Position numbers and translations under genes: made by a program. Shown piece by piece: positions 10,516 through 59,766 of a DNA stretch of 64,000 nucleotides (the stretch's first letter is position 1; every line of letters starts with the position of its first letter). The DNA comes from Spirodela intermedia (taxonomy: Eukaryota > Streptophyta > Magnoliopsida > Alismatales > Araceae): contig LR746278.1 in NCBI GenBank assembly GCA_902729315.2, positions 4,783,501 through 4,847,500 on the forward strand, given 5' to 3'. A model generated the notes under the pieces. It saw only the letters and a list, made by a program, of their open reading frames with translations. It did not search any database and was not told the DNA's origin.

Positions 10516-13500
10516 TCAGCTGTTCCCTCCTGCACCATCCAACCATGAGACAACCTCTTCGATGGAGGGACGGCTCCGAGGATCAACACTGATGCATTTG
10601 CAGGCCGTTACGAGTACCGCTCGCAGCTGCCTCTCCAATGACTTACTCCAGATCAGGGGATCAAAGACCTGCTCCACCTTCCCCTCGGACTTCATCTGCA
10701 GGACCCACGAGACCAGGTCTCGGCTGCCCTTGGCTCTGCACACATCGACAGGCCGCCTCCCAGTGAGAAGCTCCAGCAGGACGATACCGAAGCTGTAGAC
10801 GTCCCCCTTGAGCGTGGCCGTGAGGGTCTGGGCATACTCCGGCGGGATGTAGCCCAGCGTGCCCACCAAGTCGGTGGTGACATGCGTGTCGTAGGGGCAG
10901 ATGAGCCGCGAGAGCCCGAAGTCTGCCAGGTGGGCTTCGAAGCTCTCGTCCAGGAGGATGTTGCTCGACTTCACATCTCGGTGGATGATGTTGGGATCAC
11001 AGATCGTATGGAGATAGGCCAGGCCTCTCGCCGCCCCCAGAGCAATCCTTAGCCTGGCATCCCACCGGAGGAGGGCGCCGCCGTCCACCCTCTCGTGCAG
11101 CCAGTAGTCCAGGCTCCCGTTCTCCATGTAGGAGTAGATCAGCAGCCTGTCGTGCCCAAACTTGCAGTAGCCCTTGAGGGAGACGAGGTTCTTGTGCTGG
11201 GCCCTCGAGAGGGCCTCCACCTCCGCCTGGAACTCCCGCTCCATCTGCCCACAGTCGCTCGAGAGCCTCTTGATCGCCGCCTGTGTCCCGTCGGGAAGGC
11301 TTGACTTGTAGACGAGGCCGAACCCTCCACATCCGATGATGTTCGCCTGGTCGAAGTTGTTTGTGGATCTCAAGAGGTCGGAGATGGTGAGCTCCTTGCT
11401 ACCCGAGCTGTGGAAGAAGAGCACCAGCTTAGACCCCGCCGGATCTGATGTCCTGTTCGTCCCCTCTTCCAGGCCTGCTTCGCCGGCGGGGCATCCTTCC
11501 TCCTTGCGTGACAATCGGAGCACGACGGCGGCCAAGAGACATGCGACGCCAATTCCGATGCTTATAGTTATCCCGAGCATCGCTCTCCGCCCCATCTTTG
11601 ATGGCGAGGCCGGAGGAGGGCTGGAACCCACGGCACTGCTCCGATTGCAGGGAGGTGTAGGTCCCCCACAGAGGCCCGGGTTGCCTTCGAAGCTTGAGAT
11701 TGGGAAACTGGAGAACTGCACACCGTCTGGTATCTCCCCCGACAGATTGTTGTGAGCCGCACTAAACTTCGACAGGAAGCTGAGGCTATTGAGGGATCTG
11801 GGGATCGGCCCGTGCAGCTGGTTTCTCGATAACTCCAGAATCTCCAGGTTCTGCATGCCGGAGATGCTGTCGGGAATGGTGCCGGTGATGTTGTTATTGC
11901 TCAGATCCAGCACGTGGAGCTGCTTCAGCTGCCCAAACTCCGGCAGGATGGGCCCGGTGATGCCATTGTCGTTCAGGTACAGTGCTGGGGGAAAGCTTGA
12001 GATCTGGTTGTACTGAAGAGCATTGGCCGTCTGGTTGCGCTTCACAAAGAGGGGCATCCCGATCACTGTGCCGAGAGGGGAGGCAGTTGGAGAGATGAGG
12101 CTCTTGAGGCTGGTCAGGCTCAACGGGATCGGCCCGGACAGGGAGTTGTTGGAGATGTCCAGGTAGAAGAGGCTCTCGAGGTGCCCCAGCCATGGCGGGA
12201 TGTCCCCGTGCAGGCGGTTCCAGGAGATATCGAGGACTTCCAGTTTCCGGCAGTTGGCCAGCCAGACGGGGATCCGGCCGGAGAGAGCGCAGTTGCCGAG
12301 AGCCAGGATTTTCAGGCTCTGGAAGCCGACAACGTCGGCGGGGAGCTCTTCGCCGCGGAAATTTCTGGTAAGGATGAGCGTGGTGAGGTTCCCACATCGC
12401 CGGAGTACTTTCAGAGATCCCCCCAGGTCGCTCAGGCTGTTGTTCGACAGAGAGAGAAACGAGAGAGAGAGAAGATTCCCGTAGGCGTCGGGGACGGCGC
12501 CGGTGAAGCCGTTCTTGGCGAGGCTGAGGGTTTTGAGCCAGAGGGAGCCGGCGATGCCCACCGGGAGGGGACCGGAGAAGCCGTTGGCGGCAAGGTCGAG
12601 CGAGCTGAGGCGCGTGAGTTGAGAGAAATCGAGGTCGGTGGCGGGGGTGGAGCCGCCGCCGCTGCCGAGCGAGTTGTTCCGGAGGTTGAGCTCCTCGAGG
12701 CTCAAGCACCTGGACAGAGAGGAGGGGAGCCCCCCGGAGAAGAGATTTGAATGCGCGAAGAACCGCCGGAGCTGGGTAAGGCTGTCGAAGACGTCTGGAA
12801 GGGCGCCGGAGAAGCTGTTCTCCTGGAGGGCAAGGACGCTGAGCTTTGACAATTTTCTCAGCCTCTCGGGCAGAAAACCAGAGAAACTGTTAGAAGAGAG
12901 CGACAGGCTCTCCAGAGCCGCAAGGTCGAAGAGAGAGCCTGGCAGATCGCCGGAGAAGGAGTTGTCGTCGAGGTAGAGCTCGCGGAGAACCGCCCCGCAG
13001 CCGGAGATGCCCTCGTCGGAGATCTGGCCGGAGAAACGGTTCATCGACAGATCCAGGACTTGAATGGACCCTGAGCCGAGGCAGAGGCGGCGGCCGACCG
13101 GCCCGGAGAAGGTGTTGTTGCTGACATTGAAGGTGATGAGACTGGTGAACCCGCCGAGCTCGGAGAGGTCGGTTCCATTGAAGTAATTGGACGACAGATC
13201 GATGAACCTGGCCGAGGTCAAGCCGGCGATCGCCGGACCAACGGGTCCAGACAAGGCATTGAAGCTGAGGTTGAGGAGATGCAACTGGACCAGACCGGAG
13301 AGCTCCGGTGGCAGTGCCCCGCGGAGAAAGTTGCGGGAGAGGTCGAGGTTTGCCAGCTGTTCCAGGCGACCGAGAGAACTGGAGATGAAACCGTCGAGGC
13401 CCCTGCCGGGGAGTCGAAGATCTGTGACCCTCGCCACCTCCACGGCGGCGGCGCCGCCATTGATGCCTTCTGTGCAAGTAACGCCCTCCCAGCTACAGCA

Positions 13501-13707
13501 AGAAGAAGACTCCTTGGACCAGGTGGAGGAAAGGACAGTCCACCCATTTACCAGGCTCCGGGCGAATTCCCGCAGCGCCTGCTGGTCGCCGGAATCGCAA
13601 GGGGCCAGAGTGGGGGAGGAAGAACCCACAACCGAGAAGAGGAAGAAAGCCGCGCAGCAGGCAGCCAGGGGAAAGAAAGACGCCGCCTTGTTCCTGAAAG
13701 CACCCAT
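10516..13707 (-). CDS. Phytosulfokine receptor-like LRR receptor kinase
   Basis: Single-exon gene of 1063 residues. Family role: a plasma-membrane receptor for sulfated peptide hormones (phytosulfokine/PSY type) that signals with BAK1-type co-receptors. Order seen: signal peptide (about 1-27), paired-cysteine LRR N-cap (SCCSWEGVTC), about 20 LRRs, and an island near residues 548-575 containing MPLFVKRNQTANALQYNQ, which resembles the PSKR island. Next come the final LRRs, a transmembrane helix near 707-729 and a kinase from about 785. Kinase marks are GCGGFG near 792, HRDVKSSN near 908, DFGLSR, and GTLGYIPPEY in the activation segment, so it looks like an active RD kinase. I chose the Met at 13705-13707 because it starts the signal peptide. 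The frame is open for 31 more codons upstream, to 13800. The C-terminal kinase is closer to PSKR1 than to PSYR1. Its GC content is far above that of its surroundings. Confidence 0.93.
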   Translation of the reverse strand: MGAFRNKAASFFPLAACCAAFFLFSVVGSSSPTLAPCDSGDQQALREFARSLVNGWTVLSSTWSKESSSCCSWEGVTCTEGINGGAAAVEVARVTDLRLPGRGLDGFISSSLGRLEQLANLDLSRNFLRGALPPELSGLVQLHLLNLSFNALSGPVGPAIAGLTSARFIDLSSNYFNGTDLSELGGFTSLITFNVSNNTFSGPVGRRLCLGSGSIQVLDLSMNRFSGQISDEGISGCGAVLRELYLDDNSFSGDLPGSLFDLAALESLSLSSNSFSGFLPERLRKLSKLSVLALQENSFSGALPDVFDSLTQLRRFFAHSNLFSGGLPSSLSRCLSLEELNLRNNSLGSGGGSTPATDLDFSQLTRLSSLDLAANGFSGPLPVGIAGSLWLKTLSLAKNGFTGAVPDAYGNLLSLSFLSLSNNSLSDLGGSLKVLRRCGNLTTLILTRNFRGEELPADVVGFQSLKILALGNCALSGRIPVWLANCRKLEVLDISWNRLHGDIPPWLGHLESLFYLDISNNSLSGPIPLSLTSLKSLISPTASPLGTVIGMPLFVKRNQTANALQYNQISSFPPALYLNDNGITGPILPEFGQLKQLHVLDLSNNNITGTIPDSISGMQNLEILELSRNQLHGPIPRSLNSLSFLSKFSAAHNNLSGEIPDGVQFSSFPISSFEGNPGLCGGPTPPCNRSSAVGSSPPPASPSKMGRRAMLGITISIGIGVACLLAAVVLRLSRKEEGCPAGEAGLEEGTNRTSDPAGSKLVLFFHSSGSKELTISDLLRSTNNFDQANIIGCGGFGLVYKSSLPDGTQAAIKRLSSDCGQMEREFQAEVEALSRAQHKNLVSLKGYCKFGHDRLLIYSYMENGSLDYWLHERVDGGALLRWDARLRIALGAARGLAYLHTICDPNIIHRDVKSSNILLDESFEAHLADFGLSRLICPYDTHVTTDLVGTLGYIPPEYAQTLTATLKGDVYSFGIVLLELLTGRRPVDVCRAKGSRDLVSWVLQMKSEGKVEQVFDPLIWSKSLERQLRAVLVTACKCISVDPRSRPSIEEVVSWLDGAGGNS

Positions 13708-15166
13708 TTTGCTCCGATTCTCTACACTCCGTGGCCTCTGATCGACGGTGCCATCCCCCACTCGCGCAGCCGCGTCCGCGGTCCACAAAACAAATGACAA
13801 GGATTGGGGAAAGACCAGGGTTTATCTTTCGGCGGCCGATTTAGTTGGCGCAGCCGGGAAAAAGCCGCCGGCAGGTCAAAAGGGTGGTGGAGAAAGGAAG
13901 GCGAAGGCGGCCTGGTGGATGGTGCAGGGATGGTGCAGAAGGGCCGAACTCTCCCAAAGAAGACAGGCCGGTAAAGAGACACAGAGGGATAGAAAAACAC
14001 CCTGTGGAGGAAGCAAAATCTCTCCCCTGCCAAAACAGATCCACGAGCACTCCCTTTTTACAACTCCTCCGGAGCCTCCATCCTCCTTCCCCCTGGTGTA
14101 TTCTTTCTCAGATCCTGTGCTTCCTCCAAGCTCAGTGGTTCAAGGGTTCTCTGCTCCTGATGGGGAGCAGAACCCAAAACTTTTCGCCGCTCCAATCATG
14201 GGAAGAAAAAGAAAGGAAGAAGGCAGCAGAAAAGGGTACGCCAGAAGAAAGATCACAATGCCAGTGGGAGTCCACCCTCTGCAAGAGGACGATAGGGGAG
14301 GGGGAGGCGGGTCCACCTTTGCTTCTTCCTCCCCTCCGTGTTTTCTTCCATTATTATAATTGATCTAGTCCTGCCATTAATGGGCACCGAGGGGAATGGA
14401 AAGGCCACTTGGAAGCCACCACCTTTAGCAGTTCTCAAGTCACAGGAACGATGCGTCCCTTTGTTTATTGCAGCGTGGTGGTTGGTTTCCCCGTCGTTAC
14501 CATTGTTTACCGAGGCCTCCATTATGAACCTGGCAGGGGCAGCCCAAGTGCTCCTCTGCCTAGACATTCTCCGGCCGCACCGGCAAATGGAGCGAAGAGA
14601 AAGAGGGGCTGCCTTGGCGGGGAGGTGACGGCGGCGCGCGCTGCGAGACAGACAAGTCTTGGAGTCAAAAGAGGGAAGGAAGGTTCCCGTTGGAAGGCAG
14701 GCGGTGACAATCGCCCCAAATTCACGGATCGGGGTGAGATGAGAATCGGGTGGCGGAGCGGCGGTGAGTTCCCGGGAACCGCCGGCGACGGGTCAACCTC
14801 CGCCGCGTCCGCCTGGTTCTCCGGGTCAACCTCCGCCTTTCTCCACGTGAAACCCTTCGTTCATCACCCTTCCCGACCTTTTCCTCCTGTGCCCGTCCTC
14901 CGTCCGTCCGCTCGAGTCCCCCCACAGATAAGGTCTTGGTCTTTGCTTCTTCAACCCAGCAGAAGGATATTTTAACTGCCTGGGAACCATTTCGAGAGAG
15001 ACGAGCTCGTGCCCATAAGTGGAGGATTTCCTCACTGCGGCGAGGCGAAGAGGAGGTGAGGATGGGCATGAGGGAGGCTTTAATTATGAAACCTGTATGC
15101 AACAACTTATATTTATCACGTTGACCGGCAGCCTGTTTCGAAACAATTGTTTTGATGGCAAGGTCT

Positions 15167-26816: not shown

Positions 26817-27786
26817 ATGGGGGACGGGGTGAGGGGCGGTGGCAGCAGCAGCGGGGGAGGCGGCGGTCCCAACAGGCCGGCGTGGTTGCAGCAGTATGAG
26901 CTGATTGGGAAAATCGGGGAGGGGACGTATGGACTGGTCTTCTTGGCCAAGAGTAAGCAGGCGGCCAACCGAGGTAAGTGCATCGCCATCAAGAAATTTA
27001 AGCAATCCAAGGAAGGTGACGGCGTTTCTCCCACGGCCATCCGTGAGATCATGGTTTGTACTCATTCCTCAACTCCCTTATTCGGTGGTTCCCTTTTCTT
27101 TAAGTTTCTCTTCTTGAATCCCGGAGAGAGAAGATTACCTTAGACACGCTACACTTGAGAATTACTGCTCACTCCATGGGTTGAGCGCACTTTTGGCACT
27201 TGTCCGGGAAAGAGTATTCCATTAGTGAGCTATCATGCAACCTGGGCTATCTCTAATGTTTGTCAACTCCCTCATTCGGTGGTTCCATTTTCTTTAAGTT
27301 TCTCTTCTTGAATCCCGGTGAGAGAAGATCACTTTGGACACGGTATACTCGAGAATCACTGTTCGCTCCATGTTTTGAACGCAACTTTCGGCACTTATGG
27401 AAAATAGTATTCCATTAGTGGGCTATCATGCAACCTTGGCTATCTCTAGTGTTTTTCAACTCCTTCATTCGGTGGTTCCCTTTTCTTGAAGTTAGTCTTC
27501 TTGAATCTCGGGGAGAAAATATTACCTTGGACACGGTACACTCATGAATTACTTGGCGCTCCATCTTGTGAATGCACTTTTGGCACTTCTGGGAAAGAGT
27601 CTTCCATTCGTGAGCTATCATGCAACCTCGGCTATCTCTAATGTTTTTTTGATAAACTGGCTTTATACTGTTATCTGACTAGAGTGAGAAACTACACTGT
27701 GTAAACCTTGACATCAAGTTTTTTAAGGGAATTGACATGAAAGTTTGAGAGAAGAAAAGGAAAAGGAGAGGGAAGAGGGGAGATTT

Positions 27787-44100: not shown

Positions 44101-47100
44101 ATGGATTTGATACAATCCCGCCTAAGGGTTCATCTGGGCACAGATCTAGCACTACCCTCAACAGTTTGTGTTGCCATAACTGCTGTATCATCAGTTGTAG
44201 TCTTACATACAATATCTTACTGTAGATCCGTCACCGTTTTGAAATCTAGCTATTGAAAGAGTGACCTTTGTTGGCATCTCCATATCTGGTTTATTTGCCA
44301 GTAGGTGTGGAGTTCTCTCCGTTCTGGGTGTTAAGGTGAGAGAAGGAGCCTCTTGAAAGCTTCCGGACAACTTAGAGTTTCCTGTGGGACCCTGATTTAT
44401 TGTTCTGTTATATTATCTTTTCCTTTTGCTACTTTTCACTCTCTTTTTCTAGTTGTTTCCTTTGCTGCTATTCGGGGTCGTATCAATGGTATCAGAGCAC
44501 GGCCTGGACGCCATGGGACCTAGACCTGTTGACACTCGTCTGGACCACCTAGAGTCAGTGACTGAGGGGGTCAAGGACATCGCCAATATGGTGGACATGG
44601 TCTTTCAGTGTCTTGATAGAATGGAGGACCATCTGACGGCAGTCAAGCAATGATGCTCTATGTCGCAACATTTGGAAGAAGGAAAGCCGGATGTTAGAGG
44701 GAAGAAGTCCATGGCAAATGATGTCTCAGGTGCAAGAAAGCAAGGACAAGTGCGACCGCATGGGAACCACCTGGAATCGTCAACAAGGTTGGGACCAACT
44801 GGCTACTCCGATTCAGGCAGGAGTGGATGAAGATGAGAAATGCAAATTTCTGTAACAGAGGGATTATCTGAGGAGGAACTTCCTCTATTATCTGTAAAAG
44901 AATTGAAGACCGCTGGTAGTGTTTTTGGCCTAGAATCGAAGAGATTCTAAGGGGCAGATTTCACAAGGGCTTCAGGAAAATTTCAGGAAATATGGATTTA
45001 GTTATGGTGATCCGTATGGTCGCCCTTCATCCTATTATGAAACATTTAACATTCTGAATGAAATTTTAGATGATGATGCCAGAACATGGCATGCTAATAG
45101 GAGAATATTTCCACAGCATGAGTTTATGATGCAGAAAAGAACTCGTTACAAAATTGAATCCATCAAAAGACAAAGCTCATAAAAGATTAAGCCTGAGATG
45201 GAGCTTTAGAGAGCTGAATCTGAAATAGTACGTGGTAAATTGGAAATTCATAATCTCTTTCAGCAACCTGAGTTCTCGATTTCTGAGGGAAAGCTGGATG
45301 ATTATTTATTTGATTTTGAAGAAATCTGCAGCGAAAATGTTTTCTCTGCCAAATGCAAATCCATCGATATCTCAGCAGAGAATGAAATTATGCTGTGTCA
45401 TGGCATTCGTGATCAAGGTCTTCTGCAGAAGTGTTTGAATCCTCATGTGTCAACTGATGACACTTCCCCGGATGAGGAAGGTGGATTGTGCCATGGCTGT
45501 GATTGTAAAGTAGCTGGCATGAACGTGATTAACGAGAAACAACGAACATACCTTTCAATCAAAGACGAATGGGAGAAAGTATCCCTGGTTTTTAGCCTTA
45601 AGATGGTCAGCATGTTAATACCCGGTTGCCACCAGATAATTATGAAAATCTTTTTATGATTATTCTCCAAATGACCCTGGAGCTGAAAACACTGAAGTGG
45701 ATGAAGAGGTGAAGAAAGGATCAAGTTCTGATGAATCAGATTTCACATTCGATACTGATGATTTAAATGTTCTGAGTAATAAGGTCTCTATTGCTAATGA
45801 AGCATCAATATCCCGAATATCCCAGTATTGAAGCATGGTGGAGGAAGTGTCACAGGTCCTTTGTCTGCTAATTCTTCACTTTACTCTTTTGAGTCAGAAC
45901 TGGGCCAAGAAAATGCTATCCCACTGCCAAGTAAAATGCACCGGAAACATCTGGATTACAAGAAGTTATACAATGAAGCACACGGGAAAAAATTGCTAGA
46001 TTCTAGTGATGATGAAGAATGGGCTGATATGAGTATACTAATGAAATTGACTGTAACTGAAAAACAGCATGTAGCTGATGATTATGCTAAGTGATTACCG
46101 ACTGGTTATCTGGAGAATAAGAAACTTGTTGCATCTTCACTCGCTTGCTTGACAGAGTCAACATCAAACTTTAAATGCTATAATCCTTCAACGAAATTTG
46201 AGCAGTGCCCTCTTTTGAACATATGTTACTGCTCACTTTCAGAAGTAGAGTTATCTCAAGGAAACGACTTGGTTGTTCTTGTCTACAATTTACTTGGTTG
46301 GAATAGGGAGGGGATGTAAGTAGAATACCGGTTTTTGGCGCATCTGTGATTGTCAGGGATTCTAAAGGAAAGATTGTTGACTCTCAGCTTCCGTCAATAT
46401 GGAACATATCATTAGAAATCCGAAAAATACATGCTAAAACAAACTTTTTGGGACATTTCCCCTGGGGTCCAACCAAGGTTTTGGCTCATCTTCCGGTATC
46501 TGTATCACCTCTAGGTTTTAGTACGTACTTTATTTCAAGTGCAGAAAAATCCATTTCAAGGCAGATTTCAGGGCATCTGGTCATGTCTATAACTTATGAA
46601 AACACATGAAAGTGCAAGTGTAATAGAAGTTGGCCAAGGGAACTTGAAGCTCGTTTTTTATGAAGGAAAAATGAGCCATTACTCGAACAATAGAAACTCG
46701 GTTAATACTACTATGCATCAGTCCTATATTTATTGTTCTGGAGAGGATGAGTGTGGTGCTTATTATCAGGCCTCAGGAGCATTTTTTTTTTTCCCAAATG
46801 GTGCATTTTCAATACACCCTTTGGGACAAATACTTTTGACTATAATCCGAGGGCCAATTTTAGAGGAAGTACATCAACAAATAAATCCATGGATATATCA
46901 GATCACCAGAATCTATAAGGAAGGGAGCTTGTAGAAACCGAACTTATTGTTGGCGCCCTATTCCTGTTGACGATGAAGTGGGGAAATAAATAGTCACTCA
47001 AATTACCAGTAATGTGAGAAATGACACAACGTTTTATATTGATCCTTATGGAAGCGATTTTATCATAGGGATTCGAGATTATAGATCAGATTGGAATCTA

Positions 47101-50100
47101 GAAGTGAATAAAACCGTTGTTGAAAATTATCATCCTATTAATCTAGGAATTTATATGTAGGAGGCTCGAGTACTTGAAATGGTCAAATAGAGTTGATGCT
47201 CCATCAACGATTGGTGCATGATGATGGCCGAAGAGTTGCAGAGGCACTGAACGAGACTATTTGTGTTGATGAAGACTGCATAAGCTTAAGGATCTCAGGG
47301 AAATTTTATCTCAGAATTGATTCTCTGGAGGATGGCGCCAAGTGGTGTAGGTCGCTGGGGCAGGAGGTGTACTCTCCTCTTCTTATAGCGTTCTCAGAGC
47401 AGAATATAGCTTATTGGAGCTGCAGCTGGTAGGTTTGTTCTCGCATTGATAGTGATCCTTTTCGCTACATATGTGATGAGGGAGAAGAATAAAAGTGGAA
47501 GTGCTCCCCATACAACAAAATCCAGCTCATTCACCTTCGATGATCGAAAGCCAATGATGTCTCAAATGCAGACATTGGACTCGGAGGGTATGGGAAGGCT
47601 GACCACAAAATTCTACTGACGCGGCAACTTACTGCTATTGAGAGAGTTCAGCATGGGTCAGTGCTAAGTGGGTTTGAGTTCAAAGCTGGGATAGAACTAT
47701 CGTCAATGGTTCATTATAAGAACCTGGTTAAGCTGGTAGGTTTTCTAAATCATCTGAGATGCACATATGTTGGTCTACAAAAGTATTTTCAATGAATCCT
47801 TGAAAAGAAGCTTTTCAAGAAAGTCAGGTGTGATGCTGGATCGGCAGAGGAGCTTTCTAATTGCTGCTGGTTCAGCCAGAGGACTCATCTATCACCAAGG
47901 ATCACAGCTTACTTTGTCAGTCCAGCCACATTATCTACTGAACCCTTGCCACTTGGCTTGAAAACATGAAGCATAGATACAACGGGAAGATTTTTCACAT
48001 TTGACGCCACTTGGGGGTCAACGAGGCATATCAACGCCACTGTCCTGACTTCCACCATGAGGACAAGGTGGATCTTTCAGGGGGAGTATTGATACGGCTC
48101 CAATTTACTTTGGGTAGGAGGGGAAAAGAGTGAATGTCAGAAGTGTAGGGGGTTTTTAGCAGATGTCTAAGGGGACTCAGGACGGAAATAGGTTTCTCAA
48201 CAAGGGGAAAGGGTATGGAGTTTTTTGTGTTTTAAGGTGGAGAGAGAAAGAGCCTTTGAAAACTTGCGGACAATTGGGGTTCCTGTGGGACCCTGATTTA
48301 CCGTTCTCTATTTTATCTTTTCCTTTTGCTACTTTTCAATTGGCTGCTATTTGGGATCATATCAGGTTCCCTTTATGTTGAAGGTGGTCTCATGGACCAA
48401 TTGCCTTTGGCACTTCTGTAGTGAATTTAGTTCAAACTATGACGAAGCACCTTCAAATTTTCAGCTATACTGGGGATTTGGTTGGTGAGCAAAGCTAGTT
48501 TATCAAGAAATTGATGAACTTTCTCATGGAAGAAGTGAGCTTCTATAAAGCTGAAAACAAAACGATTATTACCATTGGGTACTTACCTGCTTATAGTCAA
48601 GGGGGCTGACACTTGAATTGAAGCTGCAGTTTTTTTTGAACTTGAGTTCTGTCCTGGTGGCTTTGGAGCCAAACTGAAGGAAGAGCAAAAATAAATTTGG
48701 TCTGGGGCAAATCGAAAAAAGAGCTTCAACCTACGTTCAAGGGAGTGACTGACCCTTGGAAACTTGGTTCTGTTAGATGTCACTGCAAGGCAGGTGAAAG
48801 GAAGAGCGGGCTGAGCATAATAGACTGAAAAGTAAGTTCAGGCTGACTTCCACACTTATCAGTCATAAACCTTGTTTGTTGTTAGATGAAACTAAAGCCA
48901 TCTCGAGGATCAATGTCGGCTCTAGTAAAGACCTATTTCCTACTTGACTTATTATGAGCATGATAATGGGTTATGTCGAAAAGGAAGGCGCTGCCTTATT
49001 CATCTTGAGCGGGTCCTGCGGTGGTTTAGTGGTTTTTGATCCCTCTGACCACGGTCTGTATCAATGTGGAGATAAGGTTTGTTAGTTTGAATCAAGCCCT
49101 TTTGTTTCATAGAAAAGAGGGACAGATCACACGAAAAAAAGCACTGGCGGGGCATTTTTAAAATACAGTATGAGCCCAGTTTGCTACATGTGAACCTTCA
49201 TGATGGTTCCAAACTTATGTCACTATGTGCCTAAGGTGTTGCTGGATCCTTCTTAGTCACTGCCTTAAGTCGGTCTGCTTATGCTGTCATAGCCTCAGTT
49301 CACCATTTGAAAGATCCTATGTGTTTTATATTCTAAGGCATTATGTTTGAACGAAATAATTTTCGGGAACTTTATAGTTACACTCCACCTAATCTGGATC
49401 TTTAATGTTCAAGTCATGCCTTTCTTAATTTTATTTCATCTTTCTAATAGGACTAAAGTCTTGACCAATTGTCTTGCCTTCACGTACAATAATTGATGAA
49501 AACGAGTTACACACAGATGGGTGATGTTGATCTCGAGCATATGATAGTCGCATCTACGTCGTCATTTGTGGTTAAACTATTTTTATTTATACTTTATAAA
49601 TGAAACTCTCTCGTTTTTCCATCTTCCCTTGGTTCTGATAGATTCCTTTTTAGTTTCTTATGTCAAGCTAAAATATTTATGCATATATATATTATTTTTT
49701 ATTTTTTTCTCCAGTCTTTATGGAGTTGGAAATCTCGGGCATCATCTTGGCTATGGATTCAATTCAACACCATGGCCTGTATTCCCCGTCAATATGAAAA
49801 GGAAGTCAGAGTGGAGCATTCCTCCTGGAAACATTTGGACTTCTGCAGGGGCATCAACTAGATTTCCTTCAAGTGTTTCTTCCATATTGAAAATCGGAGC
49901 GTATTCTCGTGGAATTGCTGATCAGAATCCTTGTCAGAATGCATTGTATCCACAATAAGTTCTACATCAATTTTTTTGCATTAGTTTTTGACATTAATTT
50001 GAGGAATATGTTATCTTTCCTTTTAAAACTCATTCTCTTTCAATAATTTCCAGTTTTCAGCTTGATTGTGATTTGCTATTGCTTAACAATATCAAAACAT

Positions 50101-56926: not shown

Positions 56927-58663
56927 CTACTGCAAGCAAGAGTCGGACTGATATCTGGGCGGGGGCCATTCAAGAAATTTGTGACCCAGAAGCGAAGGAG
57001 GCAGGTAGGTCTGCGACGAACAGTTGGGATGATCGGGTGGGTAGACGTAGCCCTTCCCGTACCCAAGATCCTTCATCATCTTCGTCGGAGCGTTCCTGAG
57101 ATGCAGAGGGACTCCCTCGTTCCCCCCCGCGGACTCCTTCACGAGCCTCTGCGCTGCCTGAATGGCGCGGTACACCGCCGTCGACTTGGGCGCAAGCGCC
57201 AAGTAGGCGACGCATTGCGCCAAGTTCACGTCGCATTCTGGCATGCCGATGAAGTGGCAGGCCTGGTAACAGGCGACGGCCTGCGCCACCGCCGCCGGGT
57301 CCGCCAGCCCCACGTCCTCGCCGGCGAACCGCACCAGCCTACGGGCGATGTACAGGGGCTGCTCTCCGCCTTCCAGCATCCTCGCCAGCCAGTAGATGGA
57401 GGCGTCGGCGTCGCCGCCTCGCATGGACTTATGCAGCGCGCTGATCAGGTTGTAGTGCTCCTCCCCCGCCCGGTCATAGGCCAGGTGCTTGCTCTGCATC
57501 GCTTCTGTCGCGTCGCTGAGGGTGATCTTGAGGCCTTCGTCGGCGGGGCGGGTGGAGTTCCGGTCCAGGGCCAAGGTGGCCGCCACCTCCAAGGCATTGA
57601 GGGCGACGCGGGCGTCGCCGTCACAATGAAGCGACAGGAACTCAACGGCGTCGTCTTCGGCTAGAATGGGTGGCGTCGACTTTCTGGTGGTGTCACCGTC
57701 GCCGCCGCCGCCGCCGCCGCCGCCGCCGACACCGACGCCGGCGGCGATGCCTCTCTCAGCGTCCTCTACGGCGCGGCGGAGGAGGGTTTCGACGTGGCGA
57801 GGCTCAAGCGGGCGCAAGGTGAGGACGCGGCAGCGGGAGAGAAGAGGGGTGGTGAGGTGGAAGGAGGGGTTCTCGGTGGTGGCCCCCACGAAGACGATGC
57901 TCCCGTCCTCGATGGCCGGGAGAAAAGCGTCCTGCTGCGCCTTACTGAAGCGATGCACCTCGTCCATGAATAGCACCGTCCTCGTCGGCGCCGAGCCCAA
58001 GGAGGCCGCGCGGACCTTGAGGCGTCTCCTGGCTTCCTCGGTGGCGTCCCTGACGTCCTTGACGCTGGCGGTCACGGCGGAGAGGGAGACGAAGCGGAAG
58101 GCGGAGGAGGGGGAGGCCGCGAGCGCGCGGGCGATGGAGGTCTTGCCGGCGCCGGGAGGCCCCCAGAGGAGGAGGGAGGGGAGTCGGCCGCGGTCGAGGG
58201 CGGAGCGGATGACGGAGCCCTGGCCGAGGAGGTGGTCCTGCCCGACGACCTCGTCGACGGTGCGCGGCCGCATACGTTCCGCCAGCGGCTCAAGGGCACC
58301 ACCCGCCGTCCTTCTTCTCTGCCGCTTGCTTCCATCCAAAGGGGGCGGCGGTGGGGACGACGGTGGGGAGCGGTGGGCAGGTGCAGAGCGGGTTTTTTGG
58401 CCCTGCTGCCTCTGAGGGGCGGCGGAGGGGAAGAAGCGGTCGAGGCTGGGCTGAACGGGAGGGGACCGCTGATGGGGCGGAGGCGTGGGAGAGGCGGCGG
58501 CGGCGGCGGCGGGGGGGGGCATGGAGGAAACGGAGGGGGCAGCGACCTCCTGTTGGTGGGAGAGAATCCATTCGGTGGCTTCAACGGCGGAGGCCCCGCC
58601 GGTGGCGGCGAGAGCCTGGGCGGAGAGCTCCTCCGAGAAGCCCATACTGAGCAGATGCTCCAT
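56927..58663 (-). CDS. WRNIP1: WRNIP1/MgsA-family AAA+ ATPase
   Basis: Single-exon gene of 578 residues. The family (human WRNIP1, yeast Mgs1, bacterial RarA) acts at stalled replication forks in the nucleus. Order: a UBA-like N-terminus (MEHLLSMGFSEELSAQAL), a Pro/Ser-rich linker, RPRTVDEVVGQDHLLG, Walker A GPPGAGKTS near residue 167, Walker B VLFMDEVHRF near 230, the sensor-1 block GATTENPSF, LLSRCRVL (arginine finger region), and the RarA-type C-terminal oligomerisation domain. The last ends with the signature KDLGYGKGYVYPPDHP. Human WRNIP1 has a UBZ zinc finger at its N-terminus, whereas here a UBA-like segment is seen. A glycine run near residues 311-325 is encoded by a GCC/GGC repeat. 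GC content is very high. The start is the first Met and fits the UBA helix. Confidence 0.95.
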   Translation of the reverse strand: MEHLLSMGFSEELSAQALAATGGASAVEATEWILSHQQEVAAPSVSSMPPPAAAAAASPTPPPHQRSPPVQPSLDRFFPSAAPQRQQGQKTRSAPAHRSPPSSPPPPPLDGSKRQRRRTAGGALEPLAERMRPRTVDEVVGQDHLLGQGSVIRSALDRGRLPSLLLWGPPGAGKTSIARALAASPSSAFRFVSLSAVTASVKDVRDATEEARRRLKVRAASLGSAPTRTVLFMDEVHRFSKAQQDAFLPAIEDGSIVFVGATTENPSFHLTTPLLSRCRVLTLRPLEPRHVETLLRRAVEDAERGIAAGVGVGGGGGGGGGDGDTTRKSTPPILAEDDAVEFLSLHCDGDARVALNALEVAATLALDRNSTRPADEGLKITLSDATEAMQSKHLAYDRAGEEHYNLISALHKSMRGGDADASIYWLARMLEGGEQPLYIARRLVRFAGEDVGLADPAAVAQAVACYQACHFIGMPECDVNLAQCVAYLALAPKSTAVYRAIQAAQRLVKESAGGNEGVPLHLRNAPTKMMKDLGYGKGYVYPPDHPNCSSQTYLPPSLLGHKFLEWPPPRYQSDSCLQ

Positions 58664-59766
58664 TCGTCTGCTCTCACAGCGCCTCTCTTCGCCTGCTAAA
58701 AGTATCGTCGCAGCCCAGAAATCCTTCTAGTCTGGGAAGACAGAGGGACATGTATACATTACCATATGTATACTTGGCGAGAGCGAGAGCGAGAGCGAGA
58801 GATGTTGACTAATATAAATGATTTAGAGTAACTTATATGAATATCTTGCACTAATCTAGGAAAGGAACCCACAGTTTCATCACCCAATGCTGACTTTAAA
58901 AATAAAGATAAGATTGAAAATAACCTCCCCAACTTTATGAGGGAAATCTTTTCTTTTTCTGTAATGTTTCAATTGTACTCTGATGCATGTCTCTGATCAT
59001 GATTCTTCTATCTATGACGCCTAAATATGGTAATGCAACATTAACTGGACTATATTATTAGTGCAATAATAACATACTTGTGAATAATTTTTCTTTTTAT
59101 CTTTTTATGATTACCTATAAACATCAAGAGACAAAACCTTCCATATTTGGTAAGATATTTATTGAAGAACCCTACAAACTACACCAAACCCTACGACCCA
59201 AGGCCTATGCCCTCATTGCCCAAAGAAGCATTGATCTCGAAAAGTTAAAAATGTCATCTTTTTTTTATGCTATAGCTACTTTGGGAATTAGATAGCGGTC
59301 ACTGATAGGAGCACAAAGCATTGTGACGAGGGGAGTCTCCAACTAACCTGTGTTCATCCCAGTTCCTCAACACACGCGGGCTCTGAGAGTTGGTGGCCAA
59401 AGTTTCCACTAATAGCCCAGCCGCTTGTTATCCCACAAACACTCGCACGGCTCCCTTTGAGGGAGGAGGTTCCAAGAACCAGGGGCGAGGGGGAAGACGG
59501 AGGGAGGGTCTGAAGCTCGAACACCCGCCAAGTCGTTTGGAAGGTGTTTTTAGGGCGATTCCGAACCCGTAGTGACCAGCGACCGAGCAGTTTTGCGGGG
59601 TCCCTTGTGCATTGTTGAGACCTCACCCGTATGCCCAAAGGGTGGTCAGAGACGGACGTGAGACGGGTTCGAAAGGTTGAACGTCTGGTGGCGGCGACGT
59701 GAAGCAGGTAGCGGCGCCGCCCGGCAGTCTCCTCTCGCCTGCCGCCGCAGACCTGCCGGGTGAAAA
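58664..59766. other. Divergent promoter region, WRNIP1-like / BAC1-like
   Basis: 1.1 kb between head-to-head start codons. A short (GAGAGC)n run lies at about 58779-58801. The middle part is AT-rich, and the last 400 bases are GC-richer and probably promoter and 5' UTR of the carrier gene. Open frames near 59354-59894 on minus are not supported. Confidence 0.5.

Follow-up and report, generated by a model that had tools for sequence, protein, structure and literature searches.

In the window (the whole stretch of 64,000 nucleotides of Spirodela intermedia DNA that was analysed), positions 44108-48364 hold a decayed, non-autonomous LTR element whose cargo consists of pieces of four host genes, in the order NRPE1 (the largest subunit of RNA polymerase V), PHD/HAT3.1-like, alpha-mannosidase and receptor kinase, all intronless and in the same sense. 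The reading as a Bs1-like, non-autonomous LTR element holding pieces of unrelated host genes is supported. The best explanation for the whole, to which we give a probability of about 0.8, is a non-autonomous family with a Ty3/gypsy-type pol tail, whose internal region would have been rebuilt several times from host mRNA.

Results

The features of the element are as follows (parents are given by contig, coordinates and strand).

44108..44485, +: 5' LTR; alignable with the 3' LTR over 44318-44485 only, not over the ~210 bp outside this part
44487..44498, +: primer-binding site TGGTATCAGAGC, read in the sequence; similar in the relatives L061b and C9
44499..44876, +: putative leader, possibly gag-derived; common to copy 2, C12 and C9
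44877..45173, +: NRPE1 piece, spliced; parent C4:7060300-7066800(-)
45174..46052, +: PHD-finger/homeodomain (HAT3.1-like) gene piece, spliced; parent C3:4526243-4531427(-)
46050..47402, +: GH38 alpha-mannosidase gene piece, spliced, 15 exon blocks; parent C5:5518324-5523505(-)
47403..47412, +: deletion scar; ~216 bp of copy 2 absent, including the original mannosidase/kinase junction
47413..47905, +: receptor-like kinase gene piece, spliced, 4 exon blocks; parent C11:1047154-1048023(-)
47906..48089, +: pol-end tail and polypurine tract, the tract directly abutting the 3' LTR
48090..48364, +: 3' LTR

The first-pass annotation had described a pair of LTRs, a primer site, a gag start and a gypsy-like pol end, and these fared differently. 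Aligned with each other, the LTRs are related over their inner part (83% over 117 bp in one alignment, 79% over 143 aligned bp in another); the outermost ~210 bp of the 5' LTR has no counterpart in the 3' LTR. The window copy is bordered by the pentamers GGATT and GGTTC, which do not make a clean target duplication. The primer site is present, its sequence being one established to fit plant initiator-Met tRNA, and the polypurine tract was also seen. The gag start was not confirmed: in the C9 relative, a Pfam scan of the leader turned up nothing beyond weak matches of coiled-coil type, all under the cut-offs, and the gag of L044 is too diverged to resolve where leader and NRPE1 join. The pol end was borne out, as the tail matches five other genomic places (83-88% over about 50-60 bases), and at two of them (L039 and L041) the ORFs beside it hit integrase and chromodomain models, partly just below the Pfam cut-offs. 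A pol with RT, RNaseH, integrase and chromodomain is not present in the window element, only its end, and we therefore would not class this element as an autonomous Ty3/gypsy element of the chromovirus type, to which its kinship appears to run through the tail only. No autonomous partner with the whole LTR in common was found; pol-bearing relatives share just the tail and approximately the first dozen LTR bases. An Rfam search of the window gave nothing at gathering scores.

Each of the four donors was found with its introns on a separate contig (C4 for NRPE1, C3 for PHD, C5 for the mannosidase and C11 for the kinase), and the parental introns are absent from the copies in the block alignments. 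Of the three outcomes that the first reading would have counted as refuting, two (pieces neighbouring at one parental locus, and introns kept in the copies) thus did not occur; the third, unrelated LTRs, is only half countered, since the LTRs are related in the inner part alone. The PHD piece aligns to its parent in 7 exon blocks (78-86%), the mannosidase piece in 15 (79-94%), with 14 successive intron-free joins, and the kinase piece in 4 (75-80%). Thus the three captured genes, said at first reading to be intronless and of separate origin, were confirmed exon by exon, and a fourth, NRPE1, had been missed upstream of the PHD piece. Chance is excluded as the source of the matches, with a second copy at E=0. 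Among 10 window ORFs, Pfam named only mannosidase pieces (Glyco_hydro_38C just above the cut-off, Laman-like_dom below it), and the window PHD ORF, run against a protein collection, had 5 candidates, none of which matched. Names for the PHD and kinase pieces come from their parents, because the pieces themselves are too decayed for Pfam; most cargo frames contain several stops, in the window copy and copy 2 alike.

As the first reading had anticipated, other copies exist in the genome. Copy 2 (C15:64325-68704) is near-complete, with a gene order identical to that of the window, a full LTR pair (86% identical) and a 5-bp target duplication (GATTC/GATTC), and its flanks have no match to the window flanks. 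A third, partial copy lies on C12. The same order, the unrelated flanks and the target duplication of copy 2 indicate that the chimera moved as a unit, and we are highly confident that it is a composite mobile element. At the mannosidase/kinase boundary (~47403-47412), copy 2 holds ~216 bp more, with more of both genes; this boundary is therefore a later deletion in the window copy.

The order in which the pieces were captured can be estimated from distances. Between the window and copy 2, all four cargo segments are about equally distant (K 0.166-0.197), whereas the distance from the window to the parents varies: K is 0.143 for the mannosidase, 0.186 for PHD, 0.272 for the kinase and 0.335 for NRPE1. 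Judged from branch lengths, the sequence of capture is NRPE1, then kinase, then PHD, then mannosidase, and the segments held in common with relatives agree with this order. The captures were thus successive, and the single replacement of gag-pol that had been proposed is not supported.

The window element belongs to a wider family, in which relatives with other cargo keep the common framework of LTR, leader and NRPE1 at one end and the tail at the other. The NRPE1 segment is matched at at least 13 loci (the window counted, the parent not), namely 9 from one search, with the window included, plus C9:4.62 Mb, C2:9.23 Mb, C4:2.1005 Mb and C4:2.102 Mb, both lists being lower bounds. The match to the NRPE1 parent is direct at 10 of the 13, some of these being weak (E up to 0.001); at C12 and C4:0.558 Mb it runs only through relatives, and C2:9.23 Mb, which is 98% like C9:4.62 Mb, was counted without its sequence being fetched. 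Approximately nine donor genes occur across the family, three of them with provisional names. The C9 element carries NRPE1, a GT-like piece, CAMTA (7 exon blocks) and a kinase tail; its pieces gave only a weak TIG match in Pfam, which led to CAMTA. The GT-like donor, presumably glycosyltransferase-like, matched no Pfam family. The element at C15:453k carries NRPE1, the PHD start, a WD40 gene, a CAMTA tail and the pol tail, and from this cargo set it would be a mosaic of two lineages; we take its WD40 donor to be tomosyn/Lgl-like, and a search of solved structures gave a weak F-box/WD hit alone. A further donor is, we assume, VPS13-like. Separately, the cargo of a locus on C10 matches a C1 gene, starting ~1.2 kb beyond the NRPE1 piece, and there is further cargo at the C1:2.1 Mb and C4:2.102 Mb loci.

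The two ends of the captured pieces behave differently. The cargo 5' end is the first base of an exon in four of the eight cases examined (NRPE1, PHD, GT-like and CAMTA; the others being WD40, mannosidase, kinase and TPP2, with the VPS13-like join left out), and for WD40 it lies within ~3 nt of an exon start. With random breaks and exon blocks averaging 155 nt, four 5' ends within 1 nt have P 9e-6, a post hoc figure from eight cases in which some of the exon ends were deduced from AG sites; the NRPE1 call holds only if the upstream leader is not NRPE1. By contrast, none of six cargo 3' ends (NRPE1, PHD, mannosidase, kinase, GT-like and CAMTA, the mannosidase being the least certain) falls on an exon end. 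Three different cargoes (PHD, GT-like and TPP2) are joined to the identical NRPE1 base.

Discussion

The frequent start of cargo at exon starts and its end inside exons suggest read-through splicing followed by template switching, a route also put forward for oncogene capture by retroviruses. In the capture cycle that we propose, an LTR-driven transcript would read into a neighbouring gene and be spliced to a host exon, from a donor within the element or its older cargo. This chimeric transcript would be packaged together with ordinary element RNA, to which the reverse transcriptase would switch back mid-exon, and every such cycle would give an element with new cargo. Movement would depend on enzymes from other elements, and their supply in trans is probable. 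We hold the splicing step at even odds. Splicing could not be the sole route, as three pieces (mannosidase, kinase and TPP2) begin within exons, and at C15:453k the PHD sequence does not break off at a splice donor where it meets the WD40 gene.

Pure template switching, in which element RNA and several host mRNAs are packaged together and the reverse transcriptase jumps at short matches with no spliced chimeras, is a possible but somewhat doubtful alternative. It accounts for the joins inside exons (PHD/mannosidase, mannosidase/kinase and kinase/tail, with ~3-nt overlaps at the first two) and for the NRPE1/TPP2 join, which lies inside a TPP2 exon and shares CAA. This was the view of the first-pass annotation; the excess of exon starts and the use of one NRPE1 base by three cargoes speak against it. 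If LINE-type machinery had added processed pseudogenes one by one to an LTR element, these would also be intronless, but the segments, all in sense, meet each other to within a few bases, the joins show no poly-A tracts, and copies at different loci have joins in common, which makes this origin very improbable. Very improbable, too, is a segmental duplication or assembly artefact joining unrelated pieces, suggested by the abnormal 5' LTR and lack of a clean target duplication at the window copy, since the order is identical at two loci with unrelated flanks (on which ground segmental duplication was rejected) and the PHD/mannosidase join recurs at a third.

The element can be compared with several known systems. 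In a review, Bs1 of maize is an LTR element that carries parts of three cellular genes and has no full pol (PMC13317346), and the window element is alike in holding several transduced gene pieces without a full pol. Here, more than one spliced cellular gene piece (four) lies between the LTRs, and the composite was mobilised as a unit, with two near-complete copies in unrelated flanks. Our case differs in having four genes in one element, and in a family of about nine donors whose members carry different sets and whose capture order is readable. Gene-capturing LTR retrotransposons of maize, rice and sorghum, as outlined in two studies, likewise carry host gene pieces between their LTRs (PMC2774510, PMC3726574). 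The maize survey counts 425 elements and no fewer than 189 captures; under its conditions, none of the elements had pieces of two or more standard nuclear genes (PMC2774510), unlike the element here with its four. Retroviral oncogene capture, as summarised in one account, requires a chimeric virus-host transcript, and for insertional activation host acceptors are described there as being spliced to viral or cryptic donors (PMC515179); our cargo, beginning at exon starts and stopping mid-exon, resembles this, in a plant LTR element whose cargo was repeatedly replaced and for which no selected product is known. BARE-2 and the long Veju elements, in the same review's outline, are also mosaics, produced when copying switched from one packaged RNA to another (PMC13317346), although their new parts are other elements or unknown DNA rather than host mRNA.

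The founding cargo, common to every family member examined, is the NRPE1 piece. Pol V is central to the pathway by which plants silence elements of this sort. It could be imagined that transcripts carrying NRPE1 act at the RNA level on NRPE1 itself (by siRNA or antisense pairing), weakening silencing, and that the family was launched by such a fragment acting as a counter-defence, an idea that we consider very unlikely.

How gene pieces enter LTR elements has so far mostly been argued from single examples. In this family, approximately nine donors occur in overlapping combinations and the intact donors are in the same genome, and the order and the breakpoints of capture can therefore be read. 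The asymmetry between 5' and 3' breakpoints makes the read-through-splicing model, familiar from retroviral oncogenes, testable in plant elements.

Composition of the element

The Bs1-like element carries intronless pieces of four host genes, in a genome of 136.5 Mb in 32 contigs (numbered C here), where the window spans C15:4783501-4847500.

Features of the element (window coordinates)
44108-48364, element
44487-44498, primer-binding site
44877-45173, NRPE1 gene piece
45174-46053, PHD gene piece, 7 blocks in local alignment to the C3 parent
46050-47402, alpha-mannosidase gene piece, 15 blocks in local alignment to the C5 parent
47413-47905, kinase gene piece, 4 blocks in local alignment to the C11 parent
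directly upstream of 48090, polypurine tract

As a DNA query, the internal region gave 43 matching pieces among 16 candidates in the genome; it matched a second copy elsewhere on C15 (copy 2, L045, C15:64325-68704) at 77% and 81% over two stretches jointly spanning nearly the whole query, and also gene exons on C3, C5 and C11. Blocks that are contiguous in the window are set apart in the parents (by 65-1142 bp at the 14 mannosidase joins), which bears out the intronless PHD, alpha-mannosidase and kinase pieces of the first-pass annotation. Many block ends, not all, have GT/AG-type borders, since it was BLAST that set the block limits. In Pfam, the parents match a PHD finger (E 1.3e-10), a Laman-like domain (E 3.3e-13) with an alpha-mannosidase middle domain (E 8.3e-9), and a protein kinase (E 7.1e-30). 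One ORF of the PHD parent contains WFENAR (homeodomain helix), and we take this gene to be HAT3.1-like.

That annotation counted three host genes, overlooking a fourth at 44877-45173. This stretch, which is not gag, matches three exon blocks of a C4 gene (75%, 71% and 76%). The long ORF of the C4 gene matches RNA polymerase V subunit 1 (8hyj_A) at E 5.6e-195, as compared to 7e-60 for Pol IV, and when the two exons concerned were searched alone, Pol V was the only match among the chains at E <0.2 (5.3e-29). Pol V proteins from other plants directly detect the NRPE1 segment, with a best E of 1e-4 in the window and copy 2 and 8e-6 in the C9 element. Between NRPE1 blocks 2 and 3, a parental coding stretch is absent from the window, copy 2 and the relative at C9:4.62 Mb (L060).

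Elsewhere in the window, a 1101-codon open frame (10519-13821, minus strand) is LRR receptor kinase-like; the captured kinase piece comes from another gene, on C11. A 599-codon open frame (56930-58726, minus strand) presumably starts with a UBA-like stretch, and a 193-bp unit is present in three tandem copies with 85% matches at 27069-27648.

LTRs and relatives

Between the two LTRs previously described, similarity is confined to an inner stretch, at 83% over 117 bp in one alignment and 79% over 143 aligned bp in another. The ~210 bp at the outer end of the 5' LTR (44108-44317) have no counterpart in the 3' LTR, nor any other genome match in a search that passed over very frequent words. Unequal pentamers (GGATT and GGTTC) border the pair. 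A simple LTR history is disfavoured: the LTR-LTR distance in the window element (0.248) exceeds the amount permitted by the window branch, and its 3' LTR is only ~68% identical to that of copy 2, below the identity of the internal region. An exchange of LTRs may have taken place. Copy 2 has an LTR pair 86% identical, is bordered by GATTC at both ends, shows no flank similarity to the window at E 0.1 (~2 kb flanks compared) and keeps ~216 bp at the mannosidase/kinase join that the window has lost. An apparent solo LTR of the copy 2 type (L058 3904-4208, C13:1.527 Mb; 83% identical to the 3' LTR of copy 2) is also bordered by GATTC at both ends, by either chance or target preference.

The family totals at least 13 loci, window included, and about nine donors, three of which we take to be glycosyltransferase, tomosyn-like and VPS13-like genes. 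The C12 locus (L049) has an LTR, leader, NRPE1 segment (recognised via the window), and PHD and mannosidase pieces including their join, and ends within mannosidase. The locus at C9:6.63 Mb (L050; LTR pair 74% identical) contains NRPE1, a glycosyltransferase-like piece, seven CAMTA blocks (77-85% to a C11 parent with IQ and TIG domains), one kinase block and the tail. At C15:453 kb (L051), the NRPE1/PHD join and PHD start are followed by a WD40 piece whose donor is on C1, then by the CAMTA tail common to C9 and a pol tail; two lineages seem to be combined in this mosaic. In L060, as in a C2 locus 98% identical to it, NRPE1 is combined with the glycosyltransferase-like piece and a C5 gene; C2:7.61 Mb has the C5 gene and NRPE1; C4:0.558 Mb has the glycosyltransferase-like piece and an NRPE1 segment recognised via relatives; and at C4:2.10 Mb TPP2 is joined to NRPE1, the TPP2 parent being on C2 (3lxu, E 3.2e-24).

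The identity of L060 and C2:9.234 Mb (98% over 1.6 kb) is far above that of other members and would reflect either recent movement or segmental duplication; a fold-back repeat there is matched in many other places. The pol-end tail at L044 (C3:4.0285 Mb) is preceded at short distance by a Retrotrans_gag ORF; the gap is too short for a full pol, and this is possibly a gag-only relative. A long tandem array (unit ~255 bp; L055 43-2234, C4:555 kb) adjoins a family fragment.

Serial capture

Kimura distances (window-parent/copy 2-parent/window-copy 2; triples solved by hand) and path to parent
NRPE1, 0.335/0.345/0.189; path 0.25
kinase, 0.272/0.299/0.166; path 0.20
PHD, 0.186/0.202/0.173; path 0.11
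mannosidase, 0.143/0.172/0.197; path 0.06

As the copy branches are alike in all four segments (window 0.07-0.09, copy 2 0.09-0.11) while the parent paths differ, we infer from these distances that the window element and copy 2 derive from a single chimera, with serial captures of NRPE1, then kinase, PHD and mannosidase, although donor constraint may vary. This order agrees with the distribution of cargo among relatives: all of them have NRPE1, the kinase tail extends to C9 and PHD to C12 and C15:453 kb, and mannosidase is confined to the window, copy 2 and C12. In the open-licence literature (subscription papers fall mostly outside this scope), we found no report of a family with comparable serial multi-gene capture, nor of an NRPE1 fragment within any LTR element.

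Several stops in the cargo frames of both copies, together with similar branch lengths across the segments, mean that nothing suggests coding selection on the cargo. An RNA-level counter-defence by the NRPE1 piece is, in our view, very improbable; what would fit it is the identity of the piece and the fact that the family members examined carry it. For Spirodela polyrhiza, undetectable NRPE1 expression and a lack of CHH methylation are reported (PMC10989885).

Breakpoints and proposed mechanism of capture

Four cargo pieces start directly after an AG acceptor: NRPE1 (TTTTCAG, then GAACTTCC), PHD (TTTTTGCAG, then CTCGG), CAMTA in C9 (TCTGTCAG, then GGAATC) and the glycosyltransferase-like piece in L060 (TTGGGCAG, then CCTGATG, the first three bases matched weakly). 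The WD40 piece starts at most about 3 nt from GCTAG/GTTTGGG, and the mannosidase, kinase and TPP2 pieces have 5' ends within exons. Thus 4/8 5' ends lie within 1 nt of an exon start (P 9e-6; 2.5e-4 for within 3 nt), these post hoc values assuming a mean block of 155 nt and exon starts that are partly inferred. At the other side, none of the six 3' ends examined falls on an exon end. The NRPE1 piece ends at GATCAAG, after which the parent continues with G-T; PHD, the glycosyltransferase-like piece and TPP2 are all joined to NRPE1 at this end. For TPP2 itself, splicing is disfavoured, as the same NRPE1 base is used, yet the start is within an exon. Splicing followed by template switching is proposed, from 5' ends often at exon starts and no examined 3' end at an exon end: an element transcript would have been spliced into host exons, and the spliced transcript would then have been rejoined to the element by template switching, of which the breakpoint pattern would be the expected trace.
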